Assembly: GCA_026874595.1 (NCBI GenBank)
Contig: CM049314.1
Location: 52,125,812 to 52,189,811, forward strand
Source: Sipunculus nudus
Taxonomy: Eukaryota > Annelida > Sipuncula > Golfingiida > Sipunculidae
Direction of reading: 5' to 3'
DNA length: 64,000 nt
Each line of letters opens with the position of its first letter. The first letter of the stretch is position 1. The notes under the pieces are model-generated. The model worked only from the letters and a program-made list of their open reading frames with translations, was not told the origin of the DNA and did no database searches. Below, piece after piece: positions 1,555 through 47,179 of the stretch. A program made the position numbers and the translations under genes.

Positions 1555-2022
1555 GTTCCTAACCTGTCAGTTATAATCCGCTTACTTTAGGTTCCTAACC
1601 TGTCAGCTACAATTAGTTAACTTTAGGTTTTTAACCTGTCAGTTATAATCAGTTAACTTTAAGTTCTGAACCTGTCAGCCATAATCAGTTAACTTCAGGT
1701 TCTTAACCTGTAAGCTACAATCAGTTAACTTTAGGTTTTTAACCTGTCAGCTATAATCAGTTAACTTTAGGTTCTGAACCTGTCAGCTATAATCAGTTAA
1801 CTTTAGGTTTTTAACCTGTCAGCTATAATCAGTTAACTTTAGGTTCTGAACCTGTCAGCTATAATCAGTTAACTTTAGGTTTTTAACCTGTCAGCTATAA
1901 TCAGTTAACTTTAGGTTCTGAACCTGTCAGCTATAATCAGTTAACTTTAGGTTCTTAACCTGTCAGCTTTAATCAGCTAACTTTGCGTTCCTCACCTGTC
2001 TGGTATAATTTGCTAACTTTTC
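1555..2022 (+). repeat. 36-bp minisatellite (13 units) ending at the exon A acceptor
   Basis: Thirteen head-to-tail 36-bp units, each with the core AACCTGTCAGCTATAATCAG followed by TTAACTTTAG. Units starting GTTTTT and GTTCTG alternate in the middle of the array, so there is a 72-bp higher-order period. The last unit is diverged and merges into the polypyrimidine tract of the acceptor at 2039-2040. Unit ends such as CTTTAG|G and TGTCAG|C themselves look like weak 3' splice sites. Confidence 0.9.
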
Positions 2023-2040
2023 ATGTGTTCAATGTTTCAG

Positions 2041-2225
2041 TGCTGGATGCCTCTTCAAGGAGTGTTGTCTCTGGGGGTGCCATCAACCTCAGCACACTGC
2101 CTCCGCAGGCCAGTATAGCAGGCCTCTCCATGGCAACCAGCCAGACCATCCCCTCGGTTACCATGACAGCAGTTGGTGGTGCTTCCTCGCAACCAGTTAC
2201 AATACCAAGTGTCTCCTCAGTACCA
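2041..2225 (+). CDS. SAP130: SAP130-like gene, exon A (internal exon)
   Basis: Internal coding exon, 185 bases. The acceptor is AATGTTTCAG (AG 2039-2040) and the donor is CCA|GTAAGC (GT 2226-2227). The first two bases finish a split codon and the exon ends on a complete codon, so it joins exon B in frame. It encodes about 61 residues rich in Ser, Thr, Val, Ala and Pro (LSTLPPQASIAGL, then IPSVTMTAVGGASSQPV). I read it as the part of SAP130 just before the MxSII segment. SAP130 is a nuclear, largely disordered subunit that links Sin3 and histone deacetylase complexes for repression. The identity rests mainly on the later exons; this one alone is too low in complexity to assign. Upstream exons are outside the window or unrecognised. 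Confidence 0.75.
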
Positions 2226-2374
2226 GTAAGCCCGTTCATGTTCTTTTCCAAATGTATATGGTTTTGATGTGTTAGTCTGAGCTCAACTGACTTTCATTCT
2301 TACTTAGCCATAGAAACAAATCTTTGTCTTTTCCTGGTTAATGGTGCCTGGTTAATGTACAGAAAGACAGACCA

Positions 2375-2574
2375 TTAACCAGCACAAATAGTAAGACCTA
2401 TGAATCCAAAATTTTGCATACTGTTAGATGTCCCCAAGATCTCCTACCAAACCAAAAACTGGGTCACTGCGACTTCATTCCTTCGAGAAATTAAGGAAAA
2501 ACCTCAATTTTCTATTATAAACCTATCATCAGACTTCAGGACTGCCTAATATTAAAACCACTATCTGTTTTTAG
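2375..2574 (+). repeat. Fragment of dispersed repeat R1
   Basis: Contains the R1 body segment (cctacgaatccaaaatt..., then atctcctaccaaaccaaaaa) seen also at 18260, 40500, 42370, 49790 and 63260. Its head hairpin is missing. It breaks off at CTATCTGTTTTT, where repeat R4 begins; R1 copies elsewhere continue past this point. Confidence 0.8.
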
Positions 2575-4080
2575 CGAACCTGTGAGCTTATGCAGTGGCG
2601 CAGCGTCGTCCGTCCACCGTCCGCCGTCCAGGGCTGGCTTTCCGCCGTCCATGGCTGTAAGTCAGAAACTGTTGGAGCTAGCAGCTCCAAATTACATGTA
2701 AGAATTCGTCACATGTGAAACTTGGTGGCCTGGAGCTTATCATTGGGTATCTGCATTAATTTAGATTTTATAGAGAAAAAGCTTAAAAACCTTTAAAAAT
2801 CTTCTTCTCTGAAACTGTTTAGCCAAATTGTCCAATATTTCACAGAAATGATCTCTGGAACAATCTCTCTCAAGTTTGTTCGAATGGTTCCAGTTCGGAG
2901 ATTTTTGGCCGAGTTACAGGAGGTTGTACTTAGTCATCTGTCCAAAAAAGCACACTAAAATTAAAATCTCAGAAACGGCTAGAGCTATAATGACCAAATT
3001 TTTTACCAATGTTTGTCACATATGTCATATCTGATTTTGAGGTATTGGTGAACTTAGTCATCTGTCCAAAAACGCACACTAAAATTAAAATCTCAGAAAC
3101 GGCTGTGTTTGCACCACCCAGAAATAACTCTTTGAGACAAAATTTTAATCCCAAATCTTCCATCTTTCACATAAAGCTCACCTACCAACAGGGGAAGAAC
3201 CCTAATTTTTTTAGGTCAAAAGGTCAAAGGTGAAGGTCACAGGAGCCTCTTCTTTGAAAAGCCTGTGGATGCATTTTAAGCCAACCCTTTCATCTCAATT
3301 CTTTGATTTTTCACATATAGCTCACCTACTAAGTTTGAGAAGAATCCTATAGATTTTGAGGTCACAAGGTCAAAGGTCAGGGTCACAGGATCCACTTCTT
3401 TGAAAAGGTTGTGGACACATTTCAAGCTAGACTTTTCATTCCAAGCCTTCCAGCACTGATATCGCTTCTCTGCCAACAGGGGAAAAGACCTGTTGATTTT
3501 TAGGTCAAAGGTCAAGTTCACAGCACCCACTTCTTGCGTGGAGTCATTTTCAGGCAAACTTTTCAATCTGTACCTTCCATCTGTCATATATGGGAAGAAG
3601 CCTATTGATGTTGAGGTCAAAAAGTCAAAGGTCAAGGTCACAATATTTAATTGTTCTAAATGCTTGTGAGAATATTTCAAGTGTAACTGTTCAACCCAAA
3701 CCTTCAGTCTTTCACATATGCCACATCTATGCATCACTCAGTTTGAATCAAACTTCATATTTATGGGTCTTTTTGCTTGAATAAATAACTTATTGATTTT
3801 GGGGTCAGCTGGTCAGCAGGTTAAAGGTTGCAGGTCAAAGTTATTCACCTATTGGTTGCCAAGTAATTACACCAGATTTAAGTGGTCAGTAGTTACCCAT
3901 CATTTAGAAAGAATCCAGTTGATATATGGGCAAAAGGCCAAGGTCATAGGTCAGGTTCACAATAACTTATTTTATAGACCATCTCTATTTTTGTTGTATA
4001 TATAACCATCCCACTCCAGCTGGTACATCTCCCTGTGTGGCTGTAATTGTGAGTGACACTGGTGACATATGACTCCCTTT
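2571..4080 (+). repeat. Dispersed repeat R4, rich in AGGTCA half-sites
   Basis: Begins TTTTTAGCGAACCTGTGAGC followed by a GTCCGTCC-type low-complexity stretch, then several degenerate internal repeats built around 'aggtcaaaggtcaaggtcaca' phrases. A related but partial copy lies at 37350-37700. There is no coding capacity: the 153-aa open frame at 3276-3737 (minus) is just the internal repeat read backwards. Probably a non-autonomous transposon. Its right end is uncertain. Confidence 0.6.
3367..3514 (+). promoter_or_regulatory. Two perfect DR1 nuclear-receptor-type motifs inside R4
   Basis: AGGTCA-A-AGGTCA occurs at 3367-3379 and again at 3502-3514. The first is followed at once by GGGTCA (3380-3385). 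Nearby are a DR2 (3213-3226) and a DR0 (3629-3640). DR1 is the known binding format for HNF4, RXR and COUP-type receptors. Binding or activity here is inference only, because the motifs are part of a transposon family. Confidence 0.35.
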
Positions 4081-6150: not shown

Positions 6151-6830
6151 AAGTGTCAGTCTGTTTGTCTGCTGTAAGATAAAATCACTCATATCTCGGC
6201 AGTGGTTTGACTTATCTGCCGAAAATTTTGCATGGGTATACATCTTAGATAGCTTTTTCGATTTTATGGCAGGTGGCGCCACCTACATTTATGTTAATGC
6301 TGCAGACATCCATGCTAATATCTCAGGACTGGTAAGATGTATCAGCCTGAAATTTTGCATGTGTATATATCTTACATAGCTGTATATCATACACAAGACT
6401 GATGGCGACACCTGCAACCATTTTTGCACAGCGTCCTTCTGTTTGTCTGCCCTGGGATAAAATCACTCATATCTCAGCAGTGGTTTGACTTATCTGCCTA
6501 AAATTTTGCATTTGTATACATCTTGGATAGCTTTCTGGATTTTGTGGCAGGTGGGATCACCTACATACACATTTCGGCTGAAGACATCAGTGGTTTGACT
6601 TATCCACCTGAAATTATGCATATTTATACATCTTTAATGGCTTTCTCTTTCAAATATCAGGTGGCACCACCTACATTCATGTTTACATGGTAGACATCCA
6701 TGCTAATATGCAACACATCTCACTGTATTTCCCCTTGCCACTCAATCCATGCCTCACTTCACCAGTCCCACTCTTGATTTCGGCGGATACACAGTCGCTT
6801 GTCGACTACCCATATTTTAGTTGTTTACAG
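6151..6830 (+). mobile_element. 5'-truncated Helitron-like element, same family as 19306-21044
   Basis: Body repeats with GGTGGCGCCACC near 6271, and the phrase gtctgtttgtctgc + taagataaaatcactcat, match the full elements at 19306 and 29501. The 3' end has the stem-loop AGTCGCTTGTCGACT followed by ...TTTTAG and host T, a slightly decayed CTAG end. The 5' TC end and hairpin are missing: it joins directly to an R3 tail near 6150. Confidence 0.75.
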
Positions 6831-7451: not shown

Positions 7452-7602
7452 GTACCAATGGCATCAATCATCCCAAGAGGCCCCAGCCAAGTACCACAGG
7501 TGATCCAGGGGGCGTCTAGTCAGCAGATCGCGTCATCTCATTCACAGCTCATAGCACCACATCCTGCACAGGGAACTATACACCCTTTTCATGTTCCCAG
7601 AG
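7452..7602 (+). CDS. SAP130: SAP130-like gene, exon B
   Basis: Internal exon, 151 bases. Acceptor TTGTAG|GTACCA (AG 7450-7451); donor AG|GTAAGT (GT 7603-7604), a perfect consensus. It starts on a complete codon, matching exon A, and ends after one base of a Gly codon. It encodes MASIIPRGPSQVPQVIQG and later HPFHVPRG across the junction with exon C. In human SAP130, as I recall it, a similar MSII...HLPRG segment sits at this place, just before an Ala-rich run and the VLRP motif; this is one of the better anchors for the identification. The last 15 or so bases and the donor are repeated five times downstream in the intron. Confidence 0.85.
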
Positions 7603-7800
7603 GTAAGTCACTGCTCTCTCACTTTTCATGTTCCCAGAAACACCAGTCACTGCTCTCTCACTTTCATGTTCCCAGAGACAAGTCACTGCTCTCTCACTTT
7701 CATGTTCCCAGAGACAAGTCACTGCTCTCACACTTTCATGTTCCCAGAGACAAGTCACTGCTCTCTCACTTTCATGTTCCCAGATGTAAATCACTGCTCT
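7587..7800 (+). repeat. 35-38 bp minisatellite made from the exon B donor junction
   Basis: Six units of TTTCATGTTCCCAGAG + (GTAAGT) + CACTGCTCTCTCAC. The first unit is the real exon end and donor. In units 3 to 5 the donor reads AGACAAGT, so the essential GT is AC; unit 2 reads AAACACCAGT; unit 6 reads ATGTAAAT. The frame of exon B stays open through the whole array to a stop at 7872-7874, so a retained intron would add about 90 residues with a repeating SLLSHFHVPRDK motif. Confidence 0.9.
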
Positions 7801-8264
7801 CTCTTTTGTGTATTAGAGATAGTCACACCTTTCTGTCTTTATTTTCCAAAAGATCACATGTTGCTCTATTATGATAACATTACAGGATAATTGTGATTAA
7901 TCTGATTCTAGGTAAAAAAATGTGTGAACCCCTCTATTAACCCTTTTCTAGCTATATTCATGATCAGTTTACGTGTTAGGTTTAATGAGACTTAAAGAAT
8001 CAAATAAAACAATAGATAAAATATCTAGTCTTGTTGTGAGGTTATGATTCTTCCTGCTCAGGGTAACCCTGTGTATAATAAGTTTTACATTTTAAAAGGT
8101 CAGAACTCTCGCAAATGTTATTTGGACTAATTTCCCATTTGTTTACAGAAAGATATGCTAGACATTAGTGCCAGTTGGTTTAAAAACAAAAATTAAAACT
8201 TGTCTTAGAAATATAAATTATGGTCCAATGATTGATCTGTTTTTCTTGTAATTTTGTTGTATAG

Positions 8265-8496
8265 GGCCTGCTGTTGCAGCATCTACTCTTGCTGTTCCAA
8301 AAGCTGGAGGGGTTGCCACGGCTGTACTGCGTCCAGCTCAGCCTGTCTCAGCACACCTGCCTGTCTCCAGCTCCATCCAGCCCCGCGGACCAGCCTTGAT
8401 GCCAGTCAGACCAGGCACAGCCACTCCCCCTCCTGTTTCTGGACCAGCCCAGGCCATCCAGGCCAGCAACTTAAACATCACACAGGACCCACACAG
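8265..8496 (+). CDS. SAP130: SAP130-like gene, exon C
   Basis: Internal exon, 232 bases. Acceptor GTATAG|GGCCTG (AG 8263-8264); donor CACAG|GTTGCC (GT 8497-8498), a weak donor, chosen because it preserves the phase with exon D. Its first two bases complete the Gly codon started in exon B. It encodes an Ala-rich run, then VATAVLRPAQPVSAHLPVSS and IQPRGPALMPVRPG. The order PRG - Ala run - K - TxVLRP corresponds closely to human SAP130 as I remember it (LPRG...VTTVLRPTSQ), and this is the strongest single match for the gene's identity. There are no catalytic motifs, as expected of a scaffold subunit. If the donor is wrong, the frame runs on only to a stop at 8537-8539. Confidence 0.85.
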
Positions 8497-10222: not shown

Positions 10223-10227
10223 GTTTT

Positions 10228-18442: not shown

Positions 18443-21400
18443 AGCTCAGTTGACTATAAGTGATCTGAGCTATAGTCATGGTCCATTATTCGTTGTCTGT
18501 CCGTCTGTCTGTCCGTCAATTAGACTGGCACGTTTTGAAACAGTTAGACCTACGAATCCAAAATTCAGCATACTGTTAGATGTCCCCAGGATCTCCTACC
18601 AAACCGAAAACTGGATCACTGTTACTTCGTTCCTTCGAAATATTAAGGAAAAACATCAAATTTCCAATAAAAACCTATTATCACACTTCAGGACTGCCTA
18701 ATATCAAAACCACTCGTCTATTTTTCTTCATATTTACCAGGAGTATTCCCCTATATATATACATGCCAGAAATTAAGACTGTTATTGTAATTTCCATTAG
18801 TTATGGGCTTGAACAAAGTGAACTTTGTAAAAAAATCATGAAAAATATTTTCTCACTTAACATAAAAACTTTTGAAGCTAGAGACTTTTTTTCCAAGTAT
18901 ATAACTTTGTTTAATTAAGATTCAATTGTATACCAAAAATTAGATCTGAATTTTGTAAATTTTGTAAGTTATAAGCATAAAAATAAAATCAGTACCTTTA
19001 ATTTTGCCCAACTTAGAACATGGCATGTTTTTTTCCGGTGAGTAGTGTTGATTTAATTTTCATAGCATGTAAACATAATTTGTTTAAATCTGAAATTTAA
19101 AAATAAAAACTTGAAAATTAGGCTAGTTATTGAATTTTTTCTTGAGGGTCTATTGTAGTCACTTGCTTTGTCCAGATGCAGGTAGGCCACTCCTGGTCAC
19201 TGGAAGTCAGCTATGCCAGTGTTCCTGATTTGTTACAGGTCCCCTGCTGTGATAGGTGTACAGTTAAGACAAACCCTCCCAACCAAGTGTTATACAGTAA
19301 TTGTATCCGCAAAAACAGAGTTTTGCGGATACTATGTTTTCAGCTGCACGCCGCCGCCGCGGCCGCGGCGTAGGTGTCCGGAGAACTCCTCCGTAACCGC
19401 TGGGCGGAATTTTACGAAACCCGGGATAATGTTTGGGTCACATGTGAACTGCTGCGCCCCGATTTTGTTTTGACCTCTGACCTTTCCTCTGCGCTCTGCG
19501 TCCGTTTGTGCGTCTGTTTCCACACATAAACCCACATATCTCGGGAACCGTTTGACCAATCAGGAAAATTTTTTTGCACAAATGTAGCCCTTGGAGAGCT
19601 TTATAACATACACAAGAAATGGTGGCGCCACCTGCAACCATGTTTGCACAGTGTCCATCTGTTCGTCTGCCTTCGGTTAAAATCACTCATATCTCTGCAG
19701 TGACTAGACTAATTCACCTGAAATTCGTCATGTGTAAACATCCTGGATAGCTTTTCTGATTTTATGACAGGTGGCGCCACCTACATTCACGTTTACGCTG
19801 CAGACATCCAAGCTCATATCTTGGGAACTGTTTGACCGATCAGGAAAATTTTTTTGCACAAATGTAGCCCTTGGAGAGCTTTATAACATACACAAAAAAT
19901 GGTGGCGCCACCTGCAACAATGTTTGCACAGTGTCCATCTGTTCATCTGCCTTGGGTTAAATTCACTCATATCTCTGCAGTGACTTGACTAATTCACCTG
20001 AAATTAGGCATGCGTATGCATCCTGGATAGCTTTTCTTATTTTATGACAGGTGGCGCCACCTACATTCACGTTTATGCTGCAGACATCCAAGCTCATATC
20101 TCAGAAACCGTTTGACCGATCAGGAAAATTTTTTTGCACAAATGTAGCCCTTGGAGAGCTTTATAACATACACAAAAAACGGTGGTGCCACCTGCAACCA
20201 TGTTTGCACAGTGTCCATCTGTTCATCTGCCTTGGGTTAAAATCACTCATATCTCTGTAGTGACTTGACTAAAATTTACCTGAAATTCGGCATGCGTATA
20301 CATCCTGGATAGCTTTCCTGATTTTATGACAGGTGGCGCCACCTACATTCACGTTTACGCTGCAGACATCCAAGCTCATATCTCAGGAACCGTTTGACCG
20401 TTTGGGCCAAAATTTTGCATGTGTATAGATCTCACATAGCTCTTTATCATACGCAAAACTGGTGGCGCCACCTGCAGCCATTTTTGCACAGCTCCTGTCT
20501 GTTTGTCTGCCATGGGATAAAATCACTTATATCTCGGCAGTGGTTTGACATATCTGCCTAAAATTTTGCAGGTTTATACATCCCCGACAGCTCTCTTGAT
20601 TTATGACAGGTGGCGCCACCTGCATTCTAGTTTATGCAGCAGACATCCAAGCTCATATCTTGGGAACAGTTTGACCGATTGGGCCAAAGTTTTGCATGTG
20701 TATAGTTCTCACATAGCTCTTTATCATATGCAAAACTGGTGGCGTCACCTGCAACCATTTTTGCTCAGCGTCCATCTGTTTGTCTGCCACGGGCTAAAAT
20801 CACTCATATACATGTAGTAGTTTGACTTATCTGCCTTAAATTTTGCATATGTATACAACTTGGACGGCTTTCTGGATTTTGTGGTAGGTGGCGCAACCTA
20901 CATACACAATTTGGCTGCAGACATCCATGCTAATATGCAACACTTCACTCTATTTCCCCTTGCCACTCAATCCATGCCTCACTTCACCCGTTCCACTTAT
21001 TTAGGCAGATACACGTAGTTGCTTGTCAACTACCCGTATTCTAGTTGTTTGCACTGTATCTCCTTAATTGTAATGCTGTTTCCACTCCAATATACAAAAC
21101 TTTCCTTGAAAAGTAATTCAAGGATTAATCCAGAAGATGCCAATGTTGTGTTAATATAGCATTGTTAAACAAATCAATTTTCTTCTAAATGATTTAAACA
21201 AATTAAAATATTATTAAACCAATCAGTTTATAGAATATGAAGCAAATTATGGATAAATAAAGGCACAATTTAAAATTGTGAAATCTGAATCAAGTATTAT
21301 TTATGGATATTTAGTGTTTTGCAAATTTAAAAGATATTTTTTGTGGTAAAAAATATATATACATTGTGTATGCATGATGTGGTGTTATCTGATTGAGATT

Positions 21401-22253: not shown

Positions 22254-22310
22254 AGTTAATTGTCTAGGGATACTGTGGCATCTGCAGTGCCAAGAAATGT
22301 CAAGTTGTAA

Positions 22311-25300
22311 GTGTTATGTCCTGAAGTACTTTAAGTATCACTTTAATTGCTGGTACCATTTTATTATAGGGCAAGTGTTGATGTAGAAGTGATCCTGATG
22401 TACTTAAGTATACCTTGATTTGCTGGTACCATTTTATTGTAGGGCCAGTGTTGTGTCCTGATGTACTTGAAGTATAACTTAATTTCCTGGTGCCGGTTTA
22501 TTGTAGGGCCAGTGTTGTGTCCTGATGTACTTTAAGTATACCTTGATTTGCTGGTACCATTTTGTAGTAGGGCCAGTGTTGTGTCCTGATGTTCTTTAAG
22601 TATACCTTGATTTGCTGGTACCATTTTATTGTAGGGCCAGTGTTGTGTCCTGATGAACTTTAAGTAAACCTTGATTTGCTGGTACCATTTTATAGTAGGG
22701 CCAGTGTTGTGTCCTGATGTACTTTAAGTATACCTTGATTTGCTGGTACCATTTTATTGTAGGGCCAGTGTTGTGTCCTGATGTACTTTAAGTATACCTT
22801 GATTTGCTGGTACCATTTTATTGTAGGGCCAGTGTTGTGTCCTGATGTACTTTAAGTATACCTTGATTTGCTGGTACTGTTTAATTGTAGGGCCAGTGTT
22901 GTGTCAAGATTTTCTTTGAGTTTACCTTGATTGGCTGGTACCATTTTATTGTAGGGCCAGTGTTGTGTCCTAATGTACTTTTAAGTATACCTTGATTTGC
23001 TGGTACCATTTTATTGTAGGGCCAGTGTTGTGTCCTGATGAACTTTAAGTATACCTTGATTTGCTGGTACCATTTTATAGTAGGGTCAGTGTTGTGTCCT
23101 GATGTACTCTAAGTATACCTTGATTTACTGGTACCATTTTATAGTAGGGTCAGTGTTGTGTCCTAATGTACTTTAAGTATACCTTGATTTGCTGGTACAA
23201 TTTTATTGTAGGGCCAGTGTTGTGTCCTGATGTACTTTAAGTATACCTTGATTTGCTGGTACTGTTTAATTGTAGGGCCAGTGTTGTGTCAAGATTTTCT
23301 TTGAGTTTACCTTGATTTGCTGGTACCATTTTATTGTAGGGCCAGTGTTGTGTCCTAATGTACTTTTAAGTATACCTTGAATTGCTGGTACCATTTTATT
23401 GTAGGGCCAGTGTTGTGTCCTGATGAACTTTAAGTATACCTTGATATACTGGTACCATTTTATAGTAGGGTCAGTGTTGTGTCCTGATGAACTTTAAGTA
23501 TATCTTAATTTACTGGTACCATTTTATAGTAGGGTCAGTGTTGTGTCCTGATGAACTTTAAGTATACCTTGATTTACTGGTACCATTTTATAGTAGGGTC
23601 AGTGTTGTGTCCTGATGAACTTTAAGTATACCTTGATTTACTGGTACCATTTTATTGTAGGGCCAGTGTTGTGTCCTGATGTACTTTAAGTATACCTTGA
23701 GTTGCTGGTACTGTTTAATTGTAGGGCCAGTGTTGTGTCAAGATTTTCTTTGAGTTTACCTTGAATTGCTGGTACTATTTTATTGTAGGGCCAGTGTTGT
23801 GTCCTAATGTACTTTTAAGTATACCTTGAATTGCTGGTACCATTTTATTGTAGGGCCAGTGTTGTGTCCTGATGAACTTTAAGTATACCTTGATTTGCTG
23901 GTACCATTTTATAGTAGGGTCAGTGTTGTGTCCTGATGTACTCTAAGTATACCTTGATTTACTGGTACCATTTTATAGTAGGGTCAGTGTTGTGTCCTAA
24001 TGTACTTTAAGTATACCTTGATTTGCTGGTACAATTTTATTGTAGGGCCAGTGTTGTGTCCTGATGTACTTTAAGTATACCTTGATTTGCTGGTACTGTT
24101 TAATTGTAGGGCCAGTGTTGTGTCAAGATTTTCTTTGAGTTTACCTTGATTTGCTGGTACCATTTTATTGTAGGGCCAGTGTTGTGTCCTAATGTACTTT
24201 TAAGTATACCTTGAATTGCTGGTACCATTTTATTGTAGGGCCAGTGTTGTGTCCTGATGAACTTTAAGTATACCTTGATTTACTGGTACCATTTTATAGT
24301 AGGGTCAGTGTTGTGTCCTGATGAACTTTAAGTATACCTTGATTTACTGGTACCATTTTATAGTAGGGTCAGTGTTGTGTCCTGATGAACTTTAAGTATA
24401 CCTTGATTTACTGGTACCATTTTATTGTAGGGTCAGTGTTGTGTCCTGATGTACTCTAAGTATACCTTGATTTACTGGTACCATTTTATAGTAGGGTCAG
24501 TGTTGTGTCCTAATGTACTTTAAGTATACCTTGATTTGCTGGTACAATTTTATTGTAGGGCCAGTGTTGTGTCCTGATGAACTTTAAGTATACCTTGATT
24601 TACTGGTACCATTTTATAGTAGGGTCAGTGTTGTGTCCTGATGAACTTTAAGTATACCTTGATTTACTGGTACCATTTTATAGTAGGGTCAGTGTTGTGT
24701 CCTGATGAACTTTAAGTATACCTTGATTTACTGGTACCATTTTATTGTAGGGCCAGTGTTGTGTCCTGATGTACTTTAAGTATACCTTGATTTGCTGGTA
24801 CTGTTTAATTGTAGGGCCAGTGTTGTGTCAAGATTTTCTTTGAGTTTACCTTGAATTGCTGGTACCATTTTATTGTAGGGCCAGTGTTGTGTCCTAATGT
24901 ACTTTTAAGTATACCTTGAATTGCTGGTACCATTTTATTGTAGGGCCAGTGTTGTGTCCTGATGTACTTGAAGTATAACTTAATTTCCTGGTGCCGCTTT
25001 ATTGTAGGGTCAGTGTTGTGGACCTGATATACTTTAAGTATACCCTGATTTGCTGGTACCATTTTATTGTAGGGCCAGTGTTGTCCTGATGTACTTTTAA
25101 GTATTCCTTGATTTGCTGGTACCATTTTATAGTAGGGCCAGTGTTGTGTCCTGATGTACTTGAAGTATAACTTGATTTGCTGGTACCATTTTATTGTAGG
25201 GCCAGTGTTGTGTCCTGATGTACTTTAAGTATACCTTGATTTGCTGGTACTGTTTAATTGTAGGGCCAGTGTTGTGTCAAGATTTTCTTTGAGTTTACCT

Positions 25301-25469
25301 TGATTGGCGGGTACCATTTTATTGTAGGGCCAGTGTTGTGTCCTAATGTAATTTTAAGTATACCTTGATTTGCTGGTACCATTTTATTGTAGGGCCAGTG
25401 TTGTGTTGAGATGTACTATAAGTATAAACCTTTATTTGCTGGTAATGTTTTATTGTAGGGCCAGTGTTG
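22311..25469 (+). repeat. 64-bp minisatellite (about 49 units) carrying the exon D acceptor
   Basis: Unit GCTGGTACCATTTTATTGTA + GGGCCAGTGTTGTGTCCTGA + TGTACTTTAAGTATACCTTG + ATTT. The last unit becomes the real acceptor TTTTATTGTAG|GGCCAGTGTTG of exon D, so each upstream unit contains a copy of the 3' splice site plus the first 11 exon bases. Marker units (CTGTTTAATTG...TCAAGATTTTC) at about 22878, 23265, 23708, 24098, 24797 and 25247 show higher-order blocks of 6-7 units. The 106-aa and 82-aa minus frames inside are repeat translations. Confidence 0.95.
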
Positions 25470-25661
25470 GAGCTGTAGCACAAGTTGCCTGTGGAACTGT
25501 TGCTGTCACTATTCCACAGATGGCAAGACAAGTGCTGCCATCTACAAAAGCACAGAATATCCCACAGCCAGTTTTGCTGGCTTCTCAACAACCAAAGCCT
25601 GTCATCTCAAAAGCTCTTGCTGTATCAGCCCAGTCAATGACTTCTGCAGCCCACACCAAAG
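25459..25661 (+). CDS. SAP130: SAP130-like gene, exon D
   Basis: Internal exon, 203 bases. Acceptor TTATTGTAG (AG 25457-25458) is the last unit of the 64-bp array; donor CAAAG|GTGAGG (GT 25662-25663). The first base completes the Arg codon begun in exon C, and one base is left over at the end. It encodes ASVGAVAQVACGTVAVTIPQ, MARQVLPSTKAQNIPQPVLL and ISKALAVSAQSMTSAAHTK. The composition (Ala, Val, Gln, Ser; no acidic residues) fits the disordered middle of SAP130; no domain is recognisable. Using a decoy acceptor in an upstream array unit would give GCC AGT GTT GTG TCC TGA in this frame, an immediate stop. Confidence 0.8.
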
Positions 25662-29282: not shown

Positions 29283-29396
29283 GTATTGGGACGCCTCTAA
29301 ATCTGCAAGTAACATCTCAGACAGCAGCTGTCACCATTGCCGCAGCAATACCAGCAACCTCAGCCGTGTCAGTGAACCAGCCAGCAATACCTATTG
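29283..29396 (+). CDS. SAP130: SAP130-like gene, exon E
   Basis: Internal exon, 114 bases. Acceptor CTTACAG|GTATTG (AG 29281-29282); donor TATTG|GTGAGT (GT 29397-29398). The first two bases complete the Gly codon begun in exon D; one base remains for exon F. It encodes IGTPLNLQVTSQTAAVTIAA, AIPATSAVSVNQPAIPI. Joined to exon F the sequence reads PAIPI-AKVQPQ, like SNIPVAKVVPQ in human SAP130 as I recall it, which supports both this junction and the identity. A Helitron sits only 104 bp past the donor. Confidence 0.85.
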
Positions 29397-29500: not shown

Positions 29501-30959
29501 TCTGCCAAAACAAAGTTTTGCGGATACTATGTTTTTGACCGGGTTCCGCTGCCGCGGCAGCGTTCGTTTCCGGAGCACTCCTCTGAGACTACTGGACGGA
29601 TTTTTCCGAAACTTACACAAATTATCAGGTCACATGTGAACTGGTGCCTAACCAAGTGACCTTGACCTCTGACCTTTCCTCTCTGCCCAGTGCCGTTTGT
29701 GCGTCGGTTTCCACACATAAACCCACATATCTCAGGAACCGTTTGACCGATCAGGAAAAATTTTTTACACGAATGTAGCTCTGGGATAGCTTTATAACAT
29801 ACACAAAAAAAGGTGGCGCCACCTGCAACCATGTATGCACAGTGTCCATCTGTTTGTCTGCCTTGGGTTAAAATCACTCATATCTCTGCAGTGGTTTGAC
29901 TAATTCACCTAAAATTCGGCATGCGTATACATCCTAGATAGCTTTCTTGATTTTATGACAGGTGGCGCCACCTACATTCACGTTAACGCTGCAGACATCC
30001 AAGCTAATATCTTGGGAACCGTTTGACCAATCAGGAAAAAAATTTTACACAAATGTAGCCCTTGGATAGCTTTATAACATACACAAAAATGGTGGCGCCA
30101 CCTGCAGTCATTTTTGCACAGTGTCCATCTGTTTGTCTGCCTTAGGGTTAAAATCACTCATATCTCTTCAGTGGTTTGACCAAATTACCTGAAATTCGGC
30201 ATGCATATACATCCCGCATAGCTTTCTTGATTTTATGACAGGTGGCGCCACCTACATTCACGTTCATGCTCTAGACATCCATGCTTATATCTCCGGACTC
30301 GTTCAACCAATCAGGAAAAAAATTTTACACAAATGTAGCCCTTGGATATCTTTATAACATACACAAAAATGGTGGCACCACCTGCAGCCATTTTTGCACA
30401 GTGTCCATCTGTTTGTCTGCCTTGGGTTAAAATCACTAATATATCTGCAGTGGTTTGATCAAATTACCTGTAATTCGGCATGCGTATACATCCTGGATAG
30501 CTTTCTTGATTTTATGACAGGTGGCGCCACCTACATTCACGTTCACGCTGCAGACATTAATGCTTATATCTCCCGACTAGTTTGAGCAATCAGGAAAAAA
30601 AATTTACACAAATGTAGCCCTTGGATAGCTTTATAACATACACAAAAAAGGTGGCGCCACCTGCAGCCATTTTTGCTCAGTGTCCATCTGTTTGTCTGCT
30701 GTGGGATAAAATCACTCATATCTCTGCAGTGGTTTGACTTTTCTGCATGCAATTTTGCATATGTATACATCTTGGATAGTTTCTCGTTCAAATAACAGGT
30801 GGCAGCACCTACAATCATGTTTATGTGGCAGAGATCCGTTCTAATAAGTAACACATGTAACTCTATTTCCCCTTGCCACTCAATCCATGCCTCACTTCAC
30901 CCGTCCTTCTCTGATTTCGGCGGATACACGTAGTCGCTTGTCGACTACCCGTTTTCTAG
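29501..30959 (+). mobile_element. Non-autonomous Helitron, 1459 bp
   Basis: Same family as 19306-21044. Host A at 29500, then TCTGCCAAAAC inside a hairpin with GTTTTGCGGATAC (29515-29527). It ends with the stem-loop GTAGTCG-CTTGT-CGACTAC, CCGTTTT, CTAG (30956-30959) and host T. The body holds about 280-bp tandem units with GGTGGCGCCACC palindromes (near 29814, 29960, 30093, 30240). A CpG-rich stretch (ccgctgccgcggcagcg) follows the 5' end. The short frames are repeat shadows; no helicase. Confidence 0.9.
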
Positions 30960-31672: not shown

Positions 31673-34600
31673 ATGATATGATATGATATGATATGATAGA
31701 GTTCATTTATAAAGCGCAAATATAATATACATTTCTATGCGCTGATACAAAGGGTTAAGAAAATAAGTATGTCTTGAGAGCACGCTTAAATGATTCAATA
31801 TGTGTACACGCTCTTACAGAGTCTGGTAAAGAATTCCATGCGGTGGCAGCGTACTTGGAAAATTGTCTGTCACCATATACATTATGGGAGCGAGGTACAC
31901 AGACTATCCTGTGAGCATCAGAAGAACGAAGAGACCTGCGGGGAGAATATTCCACAAACAGTTGGCGCAAATACAGTGGATACAGGCTATCATTCAGCGC
32001 TTTATACACCTGTGTGAGGACTTTAAATGTGATTCTCCTTTCGACAGGCAGCCAGTGAAGCTGTCTTAGAACAGGTCCGATGCAGTCGTACTTCCTGGAC
32101 CTTGTAAGTAATCGGGCTGATGCGTTTTGTGCAAGTTGGAGGCGATGGATGTTAGCATTGGAAGTTCCAGTTAGCAGGCTGTTGTTGTTGTCCAATCTTG
32201 ATGTAATCAGTGCGTTGATGGTCTTTGCAGCTGTCTGGTCATCAAGATGGTTCCGGATCTTACCAATTCTGCGAAGATGGTAAAAAATGTTCTTCACGAC
32301 TGATCTTGTCTGACACTCCATACTCATATTCGCATCGAAATTGGCCCCAAGATTTCTGACAGTGTGTACTGGTCTTATTTCTGCACTACCAATACAGATC
32401 TTAGGTTCAGCGCTAAGGATCTTATTAAGATGGTACCTGGGTGATATGATAAGGAGTTCGGTTTTGGAATCATTCAATTTTAGTTTGTTCTTAATCATCC
32501 ACACTCTAACACCAGCTGCACATTGTTCAATCTTCCTCTGGGATTGAGCAAGGCCGTGCTGGTCACTGAGTTTGAAGAATTCATAAAGTTGGGTGTCATC
32601 AGCGTATCCGTGTCTATGTACACCGAAGGCTTCGACAACTCTACGCAGAGGAAGGATGTAGATAAGAAATAACAAAGGACCTAATACTGATCCTTGCGGC
32701 ACTCCCACAGTGAGCATGGCTGGATCAGATAGTACACCACTGAGGTTAACACGGTGAGTGCAAGTTGTGAGGTATGACTTGCACCAATCCAGTGCTGAAC
32801 CTTGAATGCCAACTTCCTCAACTAGTCTCTCAATTAGGATGCCATGGTCTAACGCATCGAAGGCTGCAGAGAGGTCAAGCAGAAGGAGTACTACTCCCTG
32901 GCCTGTATCCAGTGCATGGTCAATATCATTCTTTATCCTTATCAGTGCTGTTTCTGTGCTGTGCCTTGGTTTGTAGGCGGATTGGAGAGGATCGTGGAGT
33001 TGATTCTGTGTCATGTGGTCCTGGATCTGCTTTGCAACCACTCTCTCCAGCAATTTGCTTACAAACGAAAGATTTGCCACAGGACGATAGTTCTTCAAAT
33101 CCTCTTGGTCAAGACCATCCTTCTTCAAAAGTGGTGTTATAAGAGCTTCTTTCAAGCAAAGTGGTACCTCGGATGATGTAATTGAGGTATTTATTACAGA
33201 TGTAAGGCATGGCAATAATGAACGTAGCACAACAGGATTTTTCAGAAGATTTGTTGTCAAAGGATCCAGGCTACAGGATTTGTTTGGACTTTTCTGGATG
33301 AATTTCTGCAGCTCCTCGGAGGATACTGGATGAAAAGTGACCATAGCAGGCGGGGGTGCTCCGTGGGACGTCCTGATCAAATCCATATCTACACTTGTGC
33401 TATCCAAGTCATTTCGAATCTTCAACACCTTAGATGTGAAGAAGTTTAAGAAGCTGTTGCTGAGTATTTCCGGACTATCTGTAGAGGGTAATTTTCTGCC
33501 AGTTCCGGACCCAAGTAGATCACTCACTAGTCTGAAGGTCTCTTTGGGTGTTGCATCACTAAATTTCTGTCTATAGTATGACCTCTTAGCCTCATCTATC
33601 AGTTTAACAACGAAGCCTCTCTGGTGCAAGAACATCTGCTTATTGATTTCTATAGGATCTTTCCTCAGCTTTCTCTCTAGCTGCCTTCTTTTTCTTCTGG
33701 CACAATGGATAATGTCCGAGTACCATGGCTTCATGGTTACCTGCTTTTTACGAATGGGTCGGGCTGGGGCATGTTTGTCCAGAATATTTGTTACAGTGTA
33801 ATTGTACAATTCTACTAACTGTGACGCATTACCATCCAGCACTCCGATATCCAGACCTAAAGACAGATCAGCTGCAAATTGATCTATGTTAATGGCCCGG
33901 AGTTTCCTGGCACATACTGTGGTCTGTGGTGATTTATCCACTGAGACATGGATTGTACATTCCACAGAATAGTGGTCTGAGATGTGATCATCGCGCACAC
34001 CCACGACCTTCACTCTGTCTTCATCATCTCTGATGATTACAAGGTCCAGTATGTGGTTGCTTTTGTGTGTAGATGAAGGCACAATCTGGCACATACCAAA
34101 CGACCGGAGTATTAAAGTGAACTGCTTGGAGAACCTGTCATCATCTACATCCATATGCAGATTAAAATCCCCAAGAACAGAGACTGGATGCTGGATGGCA
34201 CTGACAGCGGCAAGAAAAAGTTCTATTTCATGCATAAAATTTGATATTCTAAGTCCATTTCTTTGTGAAGGAGGGGGTCGGTAGATGAGGAACAGACTAA
34301 AAGGTTTTGGGCCCTTCTGATTCACTGACAGCACCTCAAAGGATAACAGATTGTCTATAGGGGATGGCTGCTGATGGAGGGGCAAGTTTGACTTGTAGAC
34401 AATGCCTACACCACCTCCTCTAGTTTTGCTAGTTTGACGTGATTTTCCTAGGAAGCTGTAGCCTTCTGGGCAGAGCTTTGACACAACTGATGTATCTCCT
34501 GGTTTTAACCATATCTTTGTTACAAGTAAAACATCAAGATCTTTCTTTGTTACATATTCACTCAGTAATATACTCTTATTACACACAGATCTGGCATTCA

Positions 34601-35190
34601 AAAGTGTAGCCTTCAGTGGAACTTTACTAACACAACAGTTTTGTGTGGTATCATTAAGTATGATATGAGTGTTGTGGTTTGCCTTGGACTTGCCTTTGTG
34701 TTTGAGTCTCTTGTGTCCAATGCCTGTGACCTTAGCAATGGGCCTTTGTTTACCTCTACCTGCCCTGGTACCCCTCCTTGTCTTTGGAGTGACGCAAATA
34801 TCCAGGTCTCTTAGAATGTGTAACAATGACAATGGAATGTGGCTTGTAGTTAATTGAAAGGCGCTAAGCTCTGCTCGTGAATAAGTCCCGTTGACCATCG
34901 TGCCATTGATCAAGAGAGTTACGCACAAGGCAAGCAAACAAAGAAACCACTGATGCATGTCTTCAGAAATGGTCGTATGCAGGAAATCTATCTCATAATT
35001 CTGATGAAAATGCACACTTTACTGATGGTAACCAAGACTGAAACACTTTCAGCATACTCTTAAGAATCTTGTCCATATGATGGTGTAAATTTCAATGTGT
35101 AACAAAGCCTCTTTCTCCAAGAATTTCTCCTTAGATTGAGAGCCAATACACAGTGCAGCCTCTAAGGGCGCCACCTGGTCTCATCCATGC
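31673..35190 (-). mobile_element. CR1-like LINE, nearly full length
   Basis: Minus-strand non-LTR retrotransposon. The 3' end (low coordinates) has no poly(A) but a (ATCAT)n microsatellite at 31673-31698, preceded by a TTTGCGCTTTATAAAT motif, both common at the 3' ends of CR1/L2/Rex-type elements. One long ORF covers endonuclease and reverse transcriptase. The 5' limit is estimated from where sequence resembling a 5' leader ends (about 35190). Target duplications could not be defined. It interrupts the TIR element 31514-36013. Confidence 0.85.
31755..35015 (-). CDS. LINE ORF2-type protein: AP endonuclease and reverse transcriptase, 1086 aa
   Basis: Open from Met at 35015 to TAA at 31755-31757. 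Residues 1-130 are basic with one hydrophobic stretch (22-37) and no recognised domain. The endonuclease spans about 135-355, with LLNARS (138-143), GDFN (282-285), the HILDLVI segment (321-327) and SDH (346-348). The usual catalytic Glu of the T-E-T/I-W-L motif is Lys167 (codon 34515-34517), explained by a single G-to-A change. The reverse transcriptase spans about 625-900, with NYRPVANLS, LDLSAAFD (Asp714), VPQGSVLGP and YADD (804-807). The C-terminal region (LLTRSRKYDCIGPVLRQLHW, then LPVERRITFKV) is typical of CR1/L2/Rex lineages. The RT looks intact, the endonuclease damaged. It is transcribed against the host gene. Confidence 0.95.
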   Translation of the reverse strand: MHFHQNYEIDFLHTTISEDMHQWFLCLLALCVTLLINGTMVNGTYSRAELSAFQLTTSHIPLSLLHILRDLDICVTPKTRRGTRAGRGKQRPIAKVTGIGHKRLKHKGKSKANHNTHIILNDTTQNCCVSKVPLKATLLNARSVCNKSILLSEYVTKKDLDVLLVTKIWLKPGDTSVVSKLCPEGYSFLGKSRQTSKTRGGGVGIVYKSNLPLHQQPSPIDNLLSFEVLSVNQKGPKPFSLFLIYRPPPSQRNGLRISNFMHEIELFLAAVSAIQHPVSVLGDFNLHMDVDDDRFSKQFTLILRSFGMCQIVPSSTHKSNHILDLVIIRDDEDRVKVVGVRDDHISDHYSVECTIHVSVDKSPQTTVCARKLRAINIDQFAADLSLGLDIGVLDGNASQLVELYNYTVTNILDKHAPARPIRKKQVTMKPWYSDIIHCARRKRRQLERKLRKDPIEINKQMFLHQRGFVVKLIDEAKRSYYRQKFSDATPKETFRLVSDLLGSGTGRKLPSTDSPEILSNSFLNFFTSKVLKIRNDLDSTSVDMDLIRTSHGAPPPAMVTFHPVSSEELQKFIQKSPNKSCSLDPLTTNLLKNPVVLRSLLPCLTSVINTSITSSEVPLCLKEALITPLLKKDGLDQEDLKNYRPVANLSFVSKLLERVVAKQIQDHMTQNQLHDPLQSAYKPRHSTETALIRIKNDIDHALDTGQGVVLLLLDLSAAFDALDHGILIERLVEEVGIQGSALDWCKSYLTTCTHRVNLSGVLSDPAMLTVGVPQGSVLGPLLFLIYILPLRRVVEAFGVHRHGYADDTQLYEFFKLSDQHGLAQSQRKIEQCAAGVRVWMIKNKLKLNDSKTELLIISPRYHLNKILSAEPKICIGSAEIRPVHTVRNLGANFDANMSMECQTRSVVKNIFYHLRRIGKIRNHLDDQTAAKTINALITSRLDNNNSLLTGTSNANIHRLQLAQNASARLLTRSRKYDCIGPVLRQLHWLPVERRITFKVLTQVYKALNDSLYPLYLRQLFVEYSPRRSLRSSDAHRIVCVPRSHNVYGDRQFSKYAATAWNSLPDSVRACTHIESFKRALKTYLFS

Positions 35191-36013: not shown

Positions 36014-36660
36014 TATTTAAATTGGGGTCATAACCTTTCCTATGAGTAGCCTTGACCCTGAATATTGCCATATATGGTGAAAATCACACAAAATCATAAA
36101 TACCTCAATAAGTGATGCATGGATTGGTCCATGAATCAAGTTGACTGCAGATCTTTGATAGTGTTGTCTTCTGTGGGAGACAGGTGGCGCCACCTCCTGT
36201 CGTTTTCCTTTTTTAGTACTGTTTAACATCCCAACATTGCCATTTGACAGTACTGTGAGCATTATAAGTAAAAAATTAATGGACAGATTGGGCTGATTGT
36301 GTATGTTCACTGAACTTGGATACCTCCATCTTGTATTCAGAACTGGTAGAGCCATCTGCAATCGTTTCTGTATGGTGTCCATCCGTAGATTTGCTTTAGG
36401 TGAAAAATGCTCATATCTCATGGGTGGTTCAATGTATTGGTCTGAAATTTGGCATGTACATCCATCTTGGAGAGTTTTCTCGTTAAGCAGAAAGGTGGAG
36501 CCACCTGCTTTACTGTTTTCATAGTATAAATATGATGCCCTTTTCTCAGGAACGATTTGCTGGATTGGCTTTAAATTGTTCTTGTCCATAGATCTTGGAT
36601 ACCTCCTCATATTTAAGACTGTGTGGCATCCATCCAGTAGGATGTTTGACTGAGCATGGA
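36014..36660 (+). repeat. R5 repeat, right part
   Basis: Continues the R5 copy broken at 31512: ggggtcataacctttcctatg, then tgccatttgacagtactgtg. It contains a GGTGGCGCCACC palindrome near 36183. The 197-aa minus frame at 36017-36610 is an open shadow of the repeat with no domain; the homologous stretches at 17577 and 39400 are not open. Confidence 0.65.
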
Positions 36661-36691
36661 GACTTACTTTTTGTTTTTTTTGTTGATACAG

Positions 36692-36881
36692 CCAAGGTAC
36701 AACCCCAGCGACAGCTTCTAAGTCACCAGGGGGCGCTGGTCAGGGATGCCAGAGATCACAATATGGCTGCTTCAGGGGCTGTGTTACAGCCAGTCCACCG
36801 AGCATCACCTACTGCCTCAGTTCCCAGTTCAGTGCCGGCAGTCAGTCACAGCACTCAGGCAGAGACACGGACACAGGACAG
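36692..36881 (+). CDS. SAP130: SAP130-like gene, exon F
   Basis: Internal exon, 190 bases. Acceptor TTGATACAG|CCAAGG (AG 36690-36691) after a T-rich tract; donor GACAG|GTGAGC (GT 36882-36883). Two bases complete Ala; two bases remain for exon G. It encodes AKVQPQRQLLSHQGALVRDA, then HRASPTASVPSSVPAVSHS and ETRTQDR. Human SAP130, as I remember it, has AKVVPQQ, then GHRASPNPVAMETRSDNR at this position: the shared HRASP and ETRxxxR blocks are the best anchor after exon C. The Ser-Pro sites could be phosphorylated; that is inference. Confidence 0.9.
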
Positions 36882-37349
36882 GTGAGCCTGGACAGCTGAT
36901 TAACTCCACGTCATAAGCAGCACATGCTCTGATGTGTTCACCATGTCTGTGTAATTCAAATGAAGTAAAGCCTTAATAAATGAATGTAGGCATCAAACAG
37001 TCCTTTCTACAGTGTAATGTTAATCATAAACTGCTATAAAATAAACATTCTTACTGCTTGAGAACACTTGAAGACTGCCACATCAACACATATAATGTTA
37101 GTATAAATTAGCCCTGACAAATTAGGTTACATGAAGGAGTGAATTGTGTCAAGCTTTTCAAAAATAATATGACAGTTTTGAAAACTCACGAAAGTTGGTT
37201 TATTTTGAGTACAATTTTTCACAAAAAGCTGCATTTCCCTGTAATTACTGCACAGATTGCCTTTAAATTTGCTATGGACTGTAATCTTTGTCCACTGTTA
37301 AGGCCATTGACCATTTGTGTGTTATAACTTGACTTCACAGTGATATTGT
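36882..37349. other. Intronic sequence after exon F
   Basis: AT-rich, single-copy-looking, no coding signal compatible with the gene. Confidence 0.5.
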
Positions 37350-38325: not shown

Positions 38326-38459
38326 AACCAGCATACCACACATGCCATACATACTGCACCCGGACTATGCCAGCTACATCTCAGCAATCAACAATAACCC
38401 ATACATATACCACCCCTCCTTCTCCTCCTCGGCCGGGACAACCATCAGATCAGGTATAG
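38326..38459 (+). CDS. SAP130: SAP130-like gene, exon G
   Basis: Internal exon, 134 bases. Acceptor GATTTCCTTTCAG (AG 38324-38325). Two donors in the same phase compete: CAG|GTATAG (GT 38454-38455) and TAG|GTGAGTAA (GT 38460-38461). The second is a better consensus and adds Gly-Ile; I chose it. The first base completes Arg from exon F. It encodes TSIPHMPYILHPDYASYISA, then INNNPYIYHPSFSSSAGTTI. It aligns with the tyrosine-rich stretch of human SAP130 (FQYFLPTYPPSAYPL...STIR, from memory). The last 70-80 bases plus the donors are repeated five times in the following intron. Confidence 0.88.
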
Positions 38460-38873
38460 GTGAGTAACCCAGCAATCAACAATAACCCATACATATACCA
38501 CCCCTCCTTCTCCTCCTCCACAGGGACAACCATCAGATGAGGTATAGGTGAGTAACCTAGCAATCAACAAAAACCCATACATATACCACCCCTCCTCCAC
38601 AGAGACAACTATCAGATGAGGTATAGGTGAGTAAGCCAGCAATCAACAATAACCCATACATATACCACCCCTCCTTCCCCTCCTTCGCCGGGACAACCAT
38701 CAGATCAGGTATAGGTGAGTAACCCAGCAATCAACAATAACCCAAACATATACCACCCCTCCTCCACAGAGACAACCATCAGATGAGGTATAGGTGAGTA
38801 ACCCAGCAATCAACAATAACCCAAACATATACCACCCCTCCTTCTCCTTCTCTGCTGGGACAACCATTCTCCT
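38460..38873 (+). repeat. 79-89 bp tandem copies of the exon G end and its donor
   Basis: Five further copies of AGCAATCAACAATAACCCAT...GACAACCATCAGAT(C/G)AG + GTATAGGTGAGTAA start at about 38471, 38559, 38638, 38726 and 38805. The one starting at 38638 keeps the exon's ATCAGATCAG; the ones at 38471, 38559 and 38726 have AGATGAG, which puts TGA in the exon's frame; the last loses the donor. The copy at 38471 also has created a CTCCTCCTCCACAG|GG acceptor-like site. The intervening TGAGTAACCC is intron sequence, so the unit spans the exon-intron border. Confidence 0.93.
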
Positions 38874-42266: not shown

Positions 42267-42271
42267 TTTTT

Positions 42272-44860: not shown

Positions 44861-44863
44861 TTT

Positions 44864-46240
44864 GCCAAAAATATCTTGGCAATTCTCTTGAAACATGTAT
44901 AAAGTGATATAATTGTTGATCCCACTGATAGTGTGCAGGGCTCACCCATATACTCAAGCTCCCAAAGTCCTGGCTTTATTTACACAGCGCTAGTGCTAGG
45001 CATGCTGGGATGAATGCAAGGCATGCTGGGAACTTGGCTATATACCATCCAGTAGCACATAATATGCATATTAAAACAAGGATGATTTTTTCATATGGTG
45101 CCGTATTTACCATGTAAAATGTTCTTGAGTTCAGTGAATGCAGACGCTGTCAGCTGGCTTGCACACTGACATACACGGAGACTTGCACATGGCACTTCGA
45201 TTACAAGGCAACCAGTAGCGCGTTATAATTATAAATATGAAGCGGCCTTTCCTCAGGTGACGGGAAATTCAATGTTTGTCAAGCTTGTATTATTGGACCA
45301 CGTCAAGAAATGAATGTGTTATAATGGGTCAGCAAAGTTCAAGAAAGGGACCGTATTTCTGCAGGATATTAATGACGAATTTCCTTACAATTTTAAATCG
45401 AAACCCAGGATTTGGTGTGTATACTCACTGAAGTTAATATAGTACACTGGAGTCTGAGGGCCAGTATTTTAGCTTTTTTAAACTTTTGCATGTAATATAA
45501 TGCACAATGAAGGACAAAAAGGATAACAATTAGCAATGTCATTCCATGTCATACATCGGCTCAACTTCAAAGGTATTTGCCGAGGTGACTGACATAATCA
45601 GGGTATGGACGTCCTGTATTATATTTTTTCATCTTTCAAATAAATATTGTTTTACATACTTTTAAATGAACATTTTATATATTCTGCTACCTTATCAGGC
45701 GTTGACTTTTATTAAGCAGTTCCTTTATTACCATCCTTATTTTTCCTCTTCACCTGCAAAGGAAATCTCAAACTGTAGTCATTCATACAATTCTCTCATA
45801 CAACACAAAATCAAATCCTCTGCAAAATTGGTATCACTTGATTTAGTTATTATTTGTCAAAAATTTACACAACAGTCACTTAAAGATCCTTGGTTTTTCT
45901 GAATTGTCCTGAATGTGCTGTGAAGTCAAACACGTGTACACAAGCTGCAGTGTTAAAATAGAGGATCGTAATGCACTTTAGAAGTTGGCAGATGTGGGGG
46001 AGGGGGCGCTTATTAGGGTGTAAAAAATATTTGGGAAAAATTTAATTTTGAGAGCGCCCGGGGCACTTATTACGTCGGGTATGGTATTTCTTTTCTTCTA
46101 ATTTTATACACAAATTGTTTCCTACAAGTTGTTGGATGTGTGGCCTTGATTCTGGTGGCCTTGGTTGTGTCAAGTGTTAATATATGCATCAGAAGAAGTG
46201 GACCCCTTTTTTAGAGGGGGTATGCCTTAATTGTCTGGGA
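44864..46240. other. Intronic sequence, no gene recognised
   Basis: Mostly single-copy-looking. Contains a short direct duplication near 44998-45030 (aggcatgctggga) and two 'cgtattt'-type phrases at 45102 and 46045-46080 reminiscent of common terminal repeats. No exon fits: exon G joins exon H in phase. Confidence 0.45.
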
Positions 46241-46420
46241 TACTAAGGCATCTCTGATGCCACAGTTCTAATCAATATACAGATATGTTCTGGTTAACTC
46301 TTCATGTAAATCCAAAATTAGGTCACTTGTGACATGTATACATTTATGTGCTATTGCCTTGAGTGGTGTGTTAGATTCAGCTGAGTGTCAAAGTCCATGG
46401 GCCACTTGCTTACAGTGTCT
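46241..46420 (+). repeat. R3 tail fragment
   Basis: Phrases 'gttctggttaactcttcatg', 'aattaggtcacttgtgac' and the tail 'ttcagctgagtgtcaaagtc' match the end of the R3 repeat at 9430-9605. Confidence 0.6.
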
Positions 46421-46539
46421 CACCACTTACAAGTATCATGTTATCCTGTATAAACCAACCCACTGTTAAATAATGTTATTTTCTAATAACACCAGCCTTG
46501 TATGACATAGATTCCATTATAAAGTCATTTATAACATAT

Positions 46540-47035
46540 CATAAGCTTAACTTTACATATATGGCAGACTAACAGTTATCATAAACAAATATTTACATTT
46601 AAGCCAGATTGAACATTTATCATAAGCTTTTATGTACATGTAAGCCAGACTCATTATTTATTATAAGATTCTATTCACTTGTAAGCCAGACTCGACATTA
46701 ATCATAAGCTTATATTTACATGTAAGCCAGACTCAGCATTAATCATAAACTTATATTTACATGTAAGCCAGACTCAACATTTATCATAAGCTTATATTTA
46801 CATGTAAGCCAGACTTGACATTAAACATAAGCTTAAAAGTACATTTAATCCAGACTCAGCATTAATTGTAAGCTTATATTTACATGTAAGCTAGACTCAA
46901 CATTAATCATATGTAAGCCAGACTTGACATTAAACATAAGCTTATATTTGCATGTAAGCTAGACACAGCATTAATCTTAAGCTTATATTTACATGTAAGC
47001 CAGACTGGACATTAATCATAAGCTTATATTTACAG
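46540..47035 (+). repeat. About 41-bp minisatellite (12 units) ending in the exon H acceptor
   Basis: Unit CATAAGCTTATATTTACATG + TAAGCCAGACTCAACATTAAT. The last unit runs CATAAGCTTATATTTACAG| and the AG at 47034-47035 is the exon H acceptor. It differs from TTTACATG in the other units by the loss of one T. Each unit also has a GCCAG. Some units are shortened (near 46910). Confidence 0.9.
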
Positions 47036-47179
47036 TGCCTACACAGACACCAAACCTGGCAGCCACACTACAAGCTGCTGCAGTTTCTGGAGGGAGGATG
47101 AACCCCATGGTTGTTACAGTGGACCCGGCTAGGCACGCGTCTGTTCCAGTTCATTCACAGTGCAAGCAGGAACCACCAG
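47036..47179 (+). CDS. SAP130: SAP130-like gene, exon H (last exon in the window)
   Basis: Internal exon, 144 bases. Acceptor TATATTTACAG (AG 47034-47035); donor CACCAG|GTAACC (GT 47180-47181). Two bases complete Val after exon G; one base remains for the next exon, which is not in the window. It encodes PTQTPNLAATLQAAAVSGGR, then MNPMVVTVDPARHASVPVHS and QCKQEPPG. Human SAP130 from memory has LNPMQLMTVDASHARH at this point; MNPMVVTVDPARH is a close match and strongly supports the call. The conserved SAP130 C-terminal domain would follow downstream. KQE may be a sumoylation-like site, but the preceding residue is Cys, so this is weak. Confidence 0.9.

Follow-up and report, generated by a model that had tools for sequence, protein, structure and literature searches.

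Tandem arrays at exon–intron borders in Sipunculus nudus: one gene with five arrayed borders and a sample from three protein families

The closest systems described so far are the mirages of amphioxus, which are known from Adh3, troponin C, the globin genes BflGb6 and BflGb9, and PGBD5 (PMC3087553; PMC3902484). According to the portions of these two papers that were available, mirages consist of units of tens to about 160 bp that are repeated in tandem across one exon–intron boundary, on either its 5′ or its 3′ side, and the splice signal is kept in many but not all copies. The amphioxus Adh gene had been named as a precedent in the original prediction about the DNA analysed here, and the same portions of text bear this out. 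In the potato RdRp gene, a tandem duplication across an intron–exon boundary gave a new intron, as described in the accessible part of that report (PMC4974935). What we describe below resembles this case in being a boundary-crossing tandem duplication with duplicated splice signals, but differs from it in that the extra copies appear to remain inside an existing intron. Earthworm metallothionein genes carry large intronic minisatellite arrays (PMC12783039) and so provide another instance of big arrays in the introns of an invertebrate gene, although in the stretch of that text examined, the arrays are not placed on splice junctions. In a search of the literature that covered titles and the openings of abstracts, the entries listed included neither a genome-wide survey of border arrays nor a case from a mollusc.

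We analysed a stretch of 64,000 nucleotides (the window) that holds eight exons, A to H, of one gene. All seven joins between these exons are phase-consistent with AG and GT borders, and the joined exons give a stop-free reading of 450 residues. For exon G the donor taken was ATAG/GTGAGT, and an alternative GTATAG donor 6 bp upstream is in frame too. The sole basis of the name SAP130 for this gene is a match to PF16014 (SAP130_C) on the same strand, 51 kb past the window. Comparison of exons A–H with Pfam gave no match above the cut-off, and comparison with the PDB gave no match. The arrays, each identified by TRF together with an alignment of its copies, and the exons are listed here in order of position.

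1555–2020, plus strand: array A, 36-bp unit × 12.9
2041–2225, plus strand: exon A, AG/GT borders and a phase-consistent join to exon B
7452–7602, plus strand: exon B, phase-consistent
7587–7803, plus strand: array B, 36-bp unit × 5.9
8265–8496, plus strand: exon C, phase-consistent, no array within 30 bp
22310–25469, plus strand: array D, 64-bp unit
25459–25661, plus strand: exon D, phase-consistent
29283–29396, plus strand: exon E, phase-consistent, no array within 30 bp
36692–36881, plus strand: exon F, phase-consistent, no array within 30 bp
38326–38459, plus strand: exon G, phase-consistent, donor as given above
38382–38867, plus strand: array G, 79/88-bp unit
46537–47034, plus strand: array H, 41-bp unit
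47036–47179, plus strand: exon H, phase-consistent

The original prediction was that five of the 16 borders of these exons sit at private tandem arrays. TRF finds arrays at all of the places named, and the five-border observation in this gene is confirmed. The wording that the arrays touch the borders holds for B, D, G, and H and is loose for A, where the array ends 20 bp before the exon A acceptor and the unit is without exon bases. It had also been claimed that the units of B, D, and G include exon bases plus the splice site, and this was found to be so. Array B takes in 16 bases of exon B and the donor, and GT is lost in four of five copies. Taken together with its exon (7452–7803), array B is open in the frame of the exon throughout the copies, so that use of a later donor would put in-frame repeats into the protein. 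Array D takes in 11 bases of exon D and contains 48 decoy acceptors, all 48 with an intact AG; when a 171-bp probe from this array was compared with the 1.43-Gb assembly, 20 matches were obtained, all of them within array D. Array G takes in 78 bases of exon G and the donor, with GT intact in all four aligned copies. Array H ends at the exon H acceptor, and AG is missing in all eight aligned copies.

The five border units show no clear kinship with one another, as had been predicted, with the G–H pair marginal. Among the 55 pairs that can be formed from 11 units in the window, the one strong match was between two downstream arrays of 31-bp units, which lie 1.5 kb apart at 60538–60850 and 62368–63063. 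Three other pairs, including G–H, scored just above 95% of shuffles, which is about what is expected from 55 tests. A further 31-bp array at 49043–49361 has a unit that holds the acceptor-like TTGTTCTGTCACAG.

Other repeats were seen in the introns of this gene. On the minus strand, 31755–35018 holds an open frame of 1087 residues with endonuclease and reverse transcriptase domains, which we read from these predicted domains as a non-LTR retrotransposon within the intron between exons E and F. Tandem units of about 280 bp occur at 19535–20936, 29727–30738, and about 36500–36640. A probe covering 36500–36900 gave at least 72 matches, in which its first ~135 bases are found again on numerous chromosomes and the spacing is often alike.

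How surprising five borders are depends on the question asked. Arrays make up 21,641 of the 64,000 bases of the window, about one third, and a random point outside the exons has a 36–40% chance of falling no more than 30 bp from one. Plain overlap predicts that 5.8–6.3 of the 16 borders meet an array, and the five observed are not above this chance level. Because an array grows from a single seed unit, the placement of the seed can be asked about separately. When the 20 arrays of the window were inserted at random, 0.62 touches were expected versus the five observed (P(≥5) = 0.0002). Since this gene had been picked after being seen, other genes were tested, and with 5 of 16 borders the window gene is an extreme one.

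The sample of further exons comprised 243 exons with 486 borders and 41 arrays from the myosin head, kinesin, and SNF2 families; three protein families are a sample and not a genome-wide scan. Each exon with a domain match was taken with 500–700 bp of flank on each side. We used all 75 myosin head matches, 125 of the 126 kinesin matches (one was dropped for its many stops), and 43 of the 89 SNF2 matches. In the last family, 35 matches were set aside (16 because they lie on small contigs, and 19 for being long, rich in stops, weak, or redundant), and a further 11 of the 54 still left were not used. An array was defined as a TRF score of at least 100 with a period of at least 20. Borders were predicted from splice consensus sequences around the points where the domain match begins and ends, and were re-called after the removal of stops, which altered 22 of the 243 exons; the predicted borders of L118, L173, and L105 are weak. 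The first border calls underlie the values given below for coverage, the random-insertion null, decoy counts, G+C, and the examples of copied bases, as well as part of the checks at different score thresholds. Myosin was examined first, then the definitions of array and touch were fixed, and then kinesin and SNF2 were examined.

The predefined comparison was overlap at real borders against overlap at shifted pseudo-borders, and it gave no excess. Arrays lie within 30 bp of 21 of the 486 real borders (4.3%) as compared to 5.4–6.2% at shifted points; intron points shifted by 100–400 bp met arrays in 26 of 453 to 30 of 486 cases. Restricting the comparison to kinesin and SNF2 likewise gave no overlap excess (13 of 336 versus 17 of 332 to 22 of 336 at shifted points). 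Array coverage is flat at ~5% from 30 to 500 bp and is 3.4% in the 10 bp adjoining the exon. We set overlap aside because a pseudo-border, unlike a border, can fall in the middle of an array. Edges were preferred because, for an intronic array to cover the position adjoining the exon, it has to start at that position; coverage that stays flat right up to the border therefore implies an accumulation of edges there. We judge edges to be the fairer measure, and this measure was chosen after the data had been seen.

Counted in this way, a border is no more than 30 bp away for 17 of the 41 array edges, versus 2.32 expected from the zone at 90–450 bp, both bins having been picked post hoc. In kinesin and SNF2 alone the numbers are 10 of 29 versus 1.85 expected (P = 2.4e-5, a Poisson value that treats arrays as independent), and in myosin they are 7 of 12 versus 0.50. 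With the inner bound again picked post hoc, 22 of the 41 arrays have their exon-side edge between 110 bp inside the exon and 30 bp outside it, and 15 of the 41 span the border into the exon. The difference between these 22 and the 21 counted by overlap is L153, which is exactly 30 bp off. Of the touching arrays, 13 are at acceptors and 9 at donors, and together they are spread over 19 of 82 gene loci (150-kb bins). A random-insertion null gave a mean of 5.8 touches and a maximum of 16 in 20,000 runs versus the 22 observed. The edge excess persists at TRF scores of 50–200 and with better splice scores, and with the ends of the domain match standing in for borders, the central 120 bp hold 23 of the 41 edges versus 4.3 expected. 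The original prediction implied that arrays within 30 bp of splice sites would exceed a shuffled expectation; among the 486 borders covered here, this holds for edges and fails for overlap.

The size of the excess depends on how dense arrays are away from exons. In the window, nine short-unit arrays lie deep in introns off the borders. Six deep-intron pieces totalling 16.8 kb contained one short-unit array, and the other five units found there are 108–338 bp long. By a hand estimate, the pooled deep density predicts ~10 touches versus the 22 observed. The edge excess is ~7-fold in the sampled flanks and could be nearer to twofold, since arrays of short units may occur at a higher density in the interior of introns than in these flanks.

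To judge the direction of copying, we considered the exon bases contained in the 15 spanning arrays. These bases lie fully within the domain match in 11 arrays, partly within it in three, and outside it in one. For example, the first 26 bases of a kinesin exon beginning FLDGYNGTIFAYGQTGSGKT recur in the intron, as do the first 39 bases of an SNF2 exon beginning GTLLVCPASVIHQWKKEVER. The copied residues are mostly ones conserved across the families, which identifies the exon as the source and the intron as the recipient.

A homologous splice position could be traced in 18 of the 27 border arrays (five in the window and 22 in the sample), and among the 142 aligned copies of these 18, 115 retain the AG or GT. 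All aligned decoys are intact in 12 arrays, and in 10 of these 12 the score of the real site is equalled or exceeded by that of the best decoy listed. Decoys no weaker than the real site mean that strength does not explain the choice, and position may set which splice site is chosen. Decoys are mostly dead in arrays B and H and in L212, and less surely so in L129 and L198, where the counts are doubtful; L131 has kept one of two. Mostly dead decoys could mean that there is selection against them. In seven arrays chosen for their intact decoys, the decoy dinucleotides are as variable as the remaining bases of the unit (an eighth, L210, was omitted from this comparison for having too few copies). 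Of 26 units, 9 have a length divisible by three, as by chance. Both the variation of the decoys and the unit lengths look neutral.

We consider it somewhat probable that segments at the edges of exons are duplicated more often than other parts of introns, that the copies are neutral, and that the exon-proximal site is the one that works. In such a process, segments of ~30–150 bp straddling or closely flanking an exon border would be duplicated in tandem more than other intron segments. The copies on the intron side would be tolerated and would from then on gain and lose repeats like any minisatellite that is effectively neutral. The copy nearest the exon would retain the coding bases and stay a working splice site, and the remaining copies would be silent decoys. 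Splicing would thus presumably take the exon-proximal site, and the decoys would be harmless. That arrays arise by local duplication across borders was the interpretation offered in the original prediction, and the arrays that span borders, the clustering of edges, and the conservation of the copied bases all support it.

The simplest competing explanation is coincidence, by which arrays are so abundant in the introns that some fall at borders by chance, without any process particular to borders. The overlap counts fit this well: random points in the window predict at least as many arrayed borders as there are, and in the sample coverage is flat and arrays are met at a slightly higher rate by pseudo-borders than by real ones. 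Random seeding, however, predicts that coverage should rise from near zero at the border, and the density of edges in the 30 bp around a border is 7 times that at 90–450 bp, with more than a third of the arrays entering the exon. We regard coincidence as unlikely. Base composition does not explain the preference of edges for borders, since G+C is near-flat across introns at 0.32–0.35 from 0 to 450 bp from the border. Somewhat less likely still is retention, by which border arrays are kept for longer because their spare sites buffer mutations or tune splicing. The large fraction of intact decoys is what this would lead one to expect. By contrast, border arrays and other arrays are alike in copy identity (medians of 86 versus 85%, P 0.84) and in copy number (3.5 versus 2.8, P 0.50), the decoy dinucleotides in the seven arrays compared are no more conserved than the rest of the unit, and the units have no bias to multiples of three. 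Equal identity and copy number give no indication of longer survival, and a higher birth rate is simpler; we infer that birth rather than survival is the cause.

Two further explanations reverse or extend the order of events. If the introns were young and had themselves come from tandem duplication, as has been proposed for amphioxus globin genes and reported for the potato gene (in the part of that paper available, PMC4974935), arrays at borders would be their traces. A myosin intron (C9, 48.05 Mb) with a 48-bp unit common to both of its sampled ends fits this. Among kinesin border arrays, 10 of 11 positions are common to another locus, but so are 75% of random positions, and this sharing does not set the border arrays apart (121 of the 125 kinesin exons entered the comparison). 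Overall we think young introns very unlikely. Most improbable of all is that the arrays are the older feature and that exon borders later shifted into them. Arrays do supply dozens of near-identical AG or GT sites into which a border could move, but the exon bases in the spanning arrays lie fully or partly within a domain match in all but one case, which means that their coding role is older than the array.

The preferred reading, more frequent duplication at exon edges, can be taken further. Borders would then be a hotspot of minisatellite birth, probably linked to transcription or splicing, with about one in 20 borders arrayed and often with intact-looking decoys that are ignored by position because the exon-proximal site wins. 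A link between array birth and transcription or splicing may exist, and this fuller statement as a whole is one that we hold tentatively, with more doubt than confidence. If a common birth process at borders does operate in another animal, it would provide a natural series of tandem copies of splice sites, from two to about fifty. If true, such a series would let one ask how the spliceosome picks among many equal sites, and the tandem-duplication route to new introns would become testable at many loci together.

The anatomy is that of the amphioxus mirages, so this is a known kind of structure that is seen here in more genes than in the literature searched. Set against the available portions of the mirage papers (PMC3087553; PMC3902484), the likeness includes units that span the exon–intron boundary (B, D, and G in the window, and the 15 spanning arrays of the sample), AG or GT kept in many but not all copies, and duplication on both sides of boundaries. 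Mirages have so far come from a few amphioxus genes and were described gene by gene, as far as those portions go, whereas here about 4.3–4.5% of 486 sampled borders in many genes are involved, and array D has up to 48 decoys. The GFP family, which amphioxus has alongside a genome of 0.5 Gb, gave no match in the 1.43-Gb assembly, and the controls of that search gave none either; this absence counts against amphioxus without being proof. The comparison covers anatomy, known here from the DNA of a single assembly.

Several minor observations came from the sampled loci and their contigs. The 48-bp unit is at both ends of the myosin intron between L129 and L130 (C9, 48.047–48.051 Mb), of which perhaps nearly all is one array. 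At L092 (C2, 44.849–44.852 Mb), four stretches of a muscle myosin gene all align to roughly one segment of the domain (positions 109–153) and are perhaps a cluster of alternative exons, as judged from these matches. A muscle myosin exon matched chains from squid, vertebrates, and scallop with scores no more than two bits apart, and mollusc haemocyanin gave no match in a search whose controls likewise gave none. Animal genes have their matches on 17 large contigs (C1–C17), and the assembly also includes bacterial contigs, several of them over a megabase. Nine of 11 COX1 matches, each with 577–578 open residues and with near-equal scores, lie on several contigs among C60–C89, outside C1–C17, and some of these contigs exceed 1 Mb. 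One of these COX1 matches, L001, reaches an identity of 58% at most with the 80 GTDB loci listed, from which nearer records may be missing. The contigs with these COX1 matches are perhaps from symbionts or cohabitants, and perhaps from several strains.
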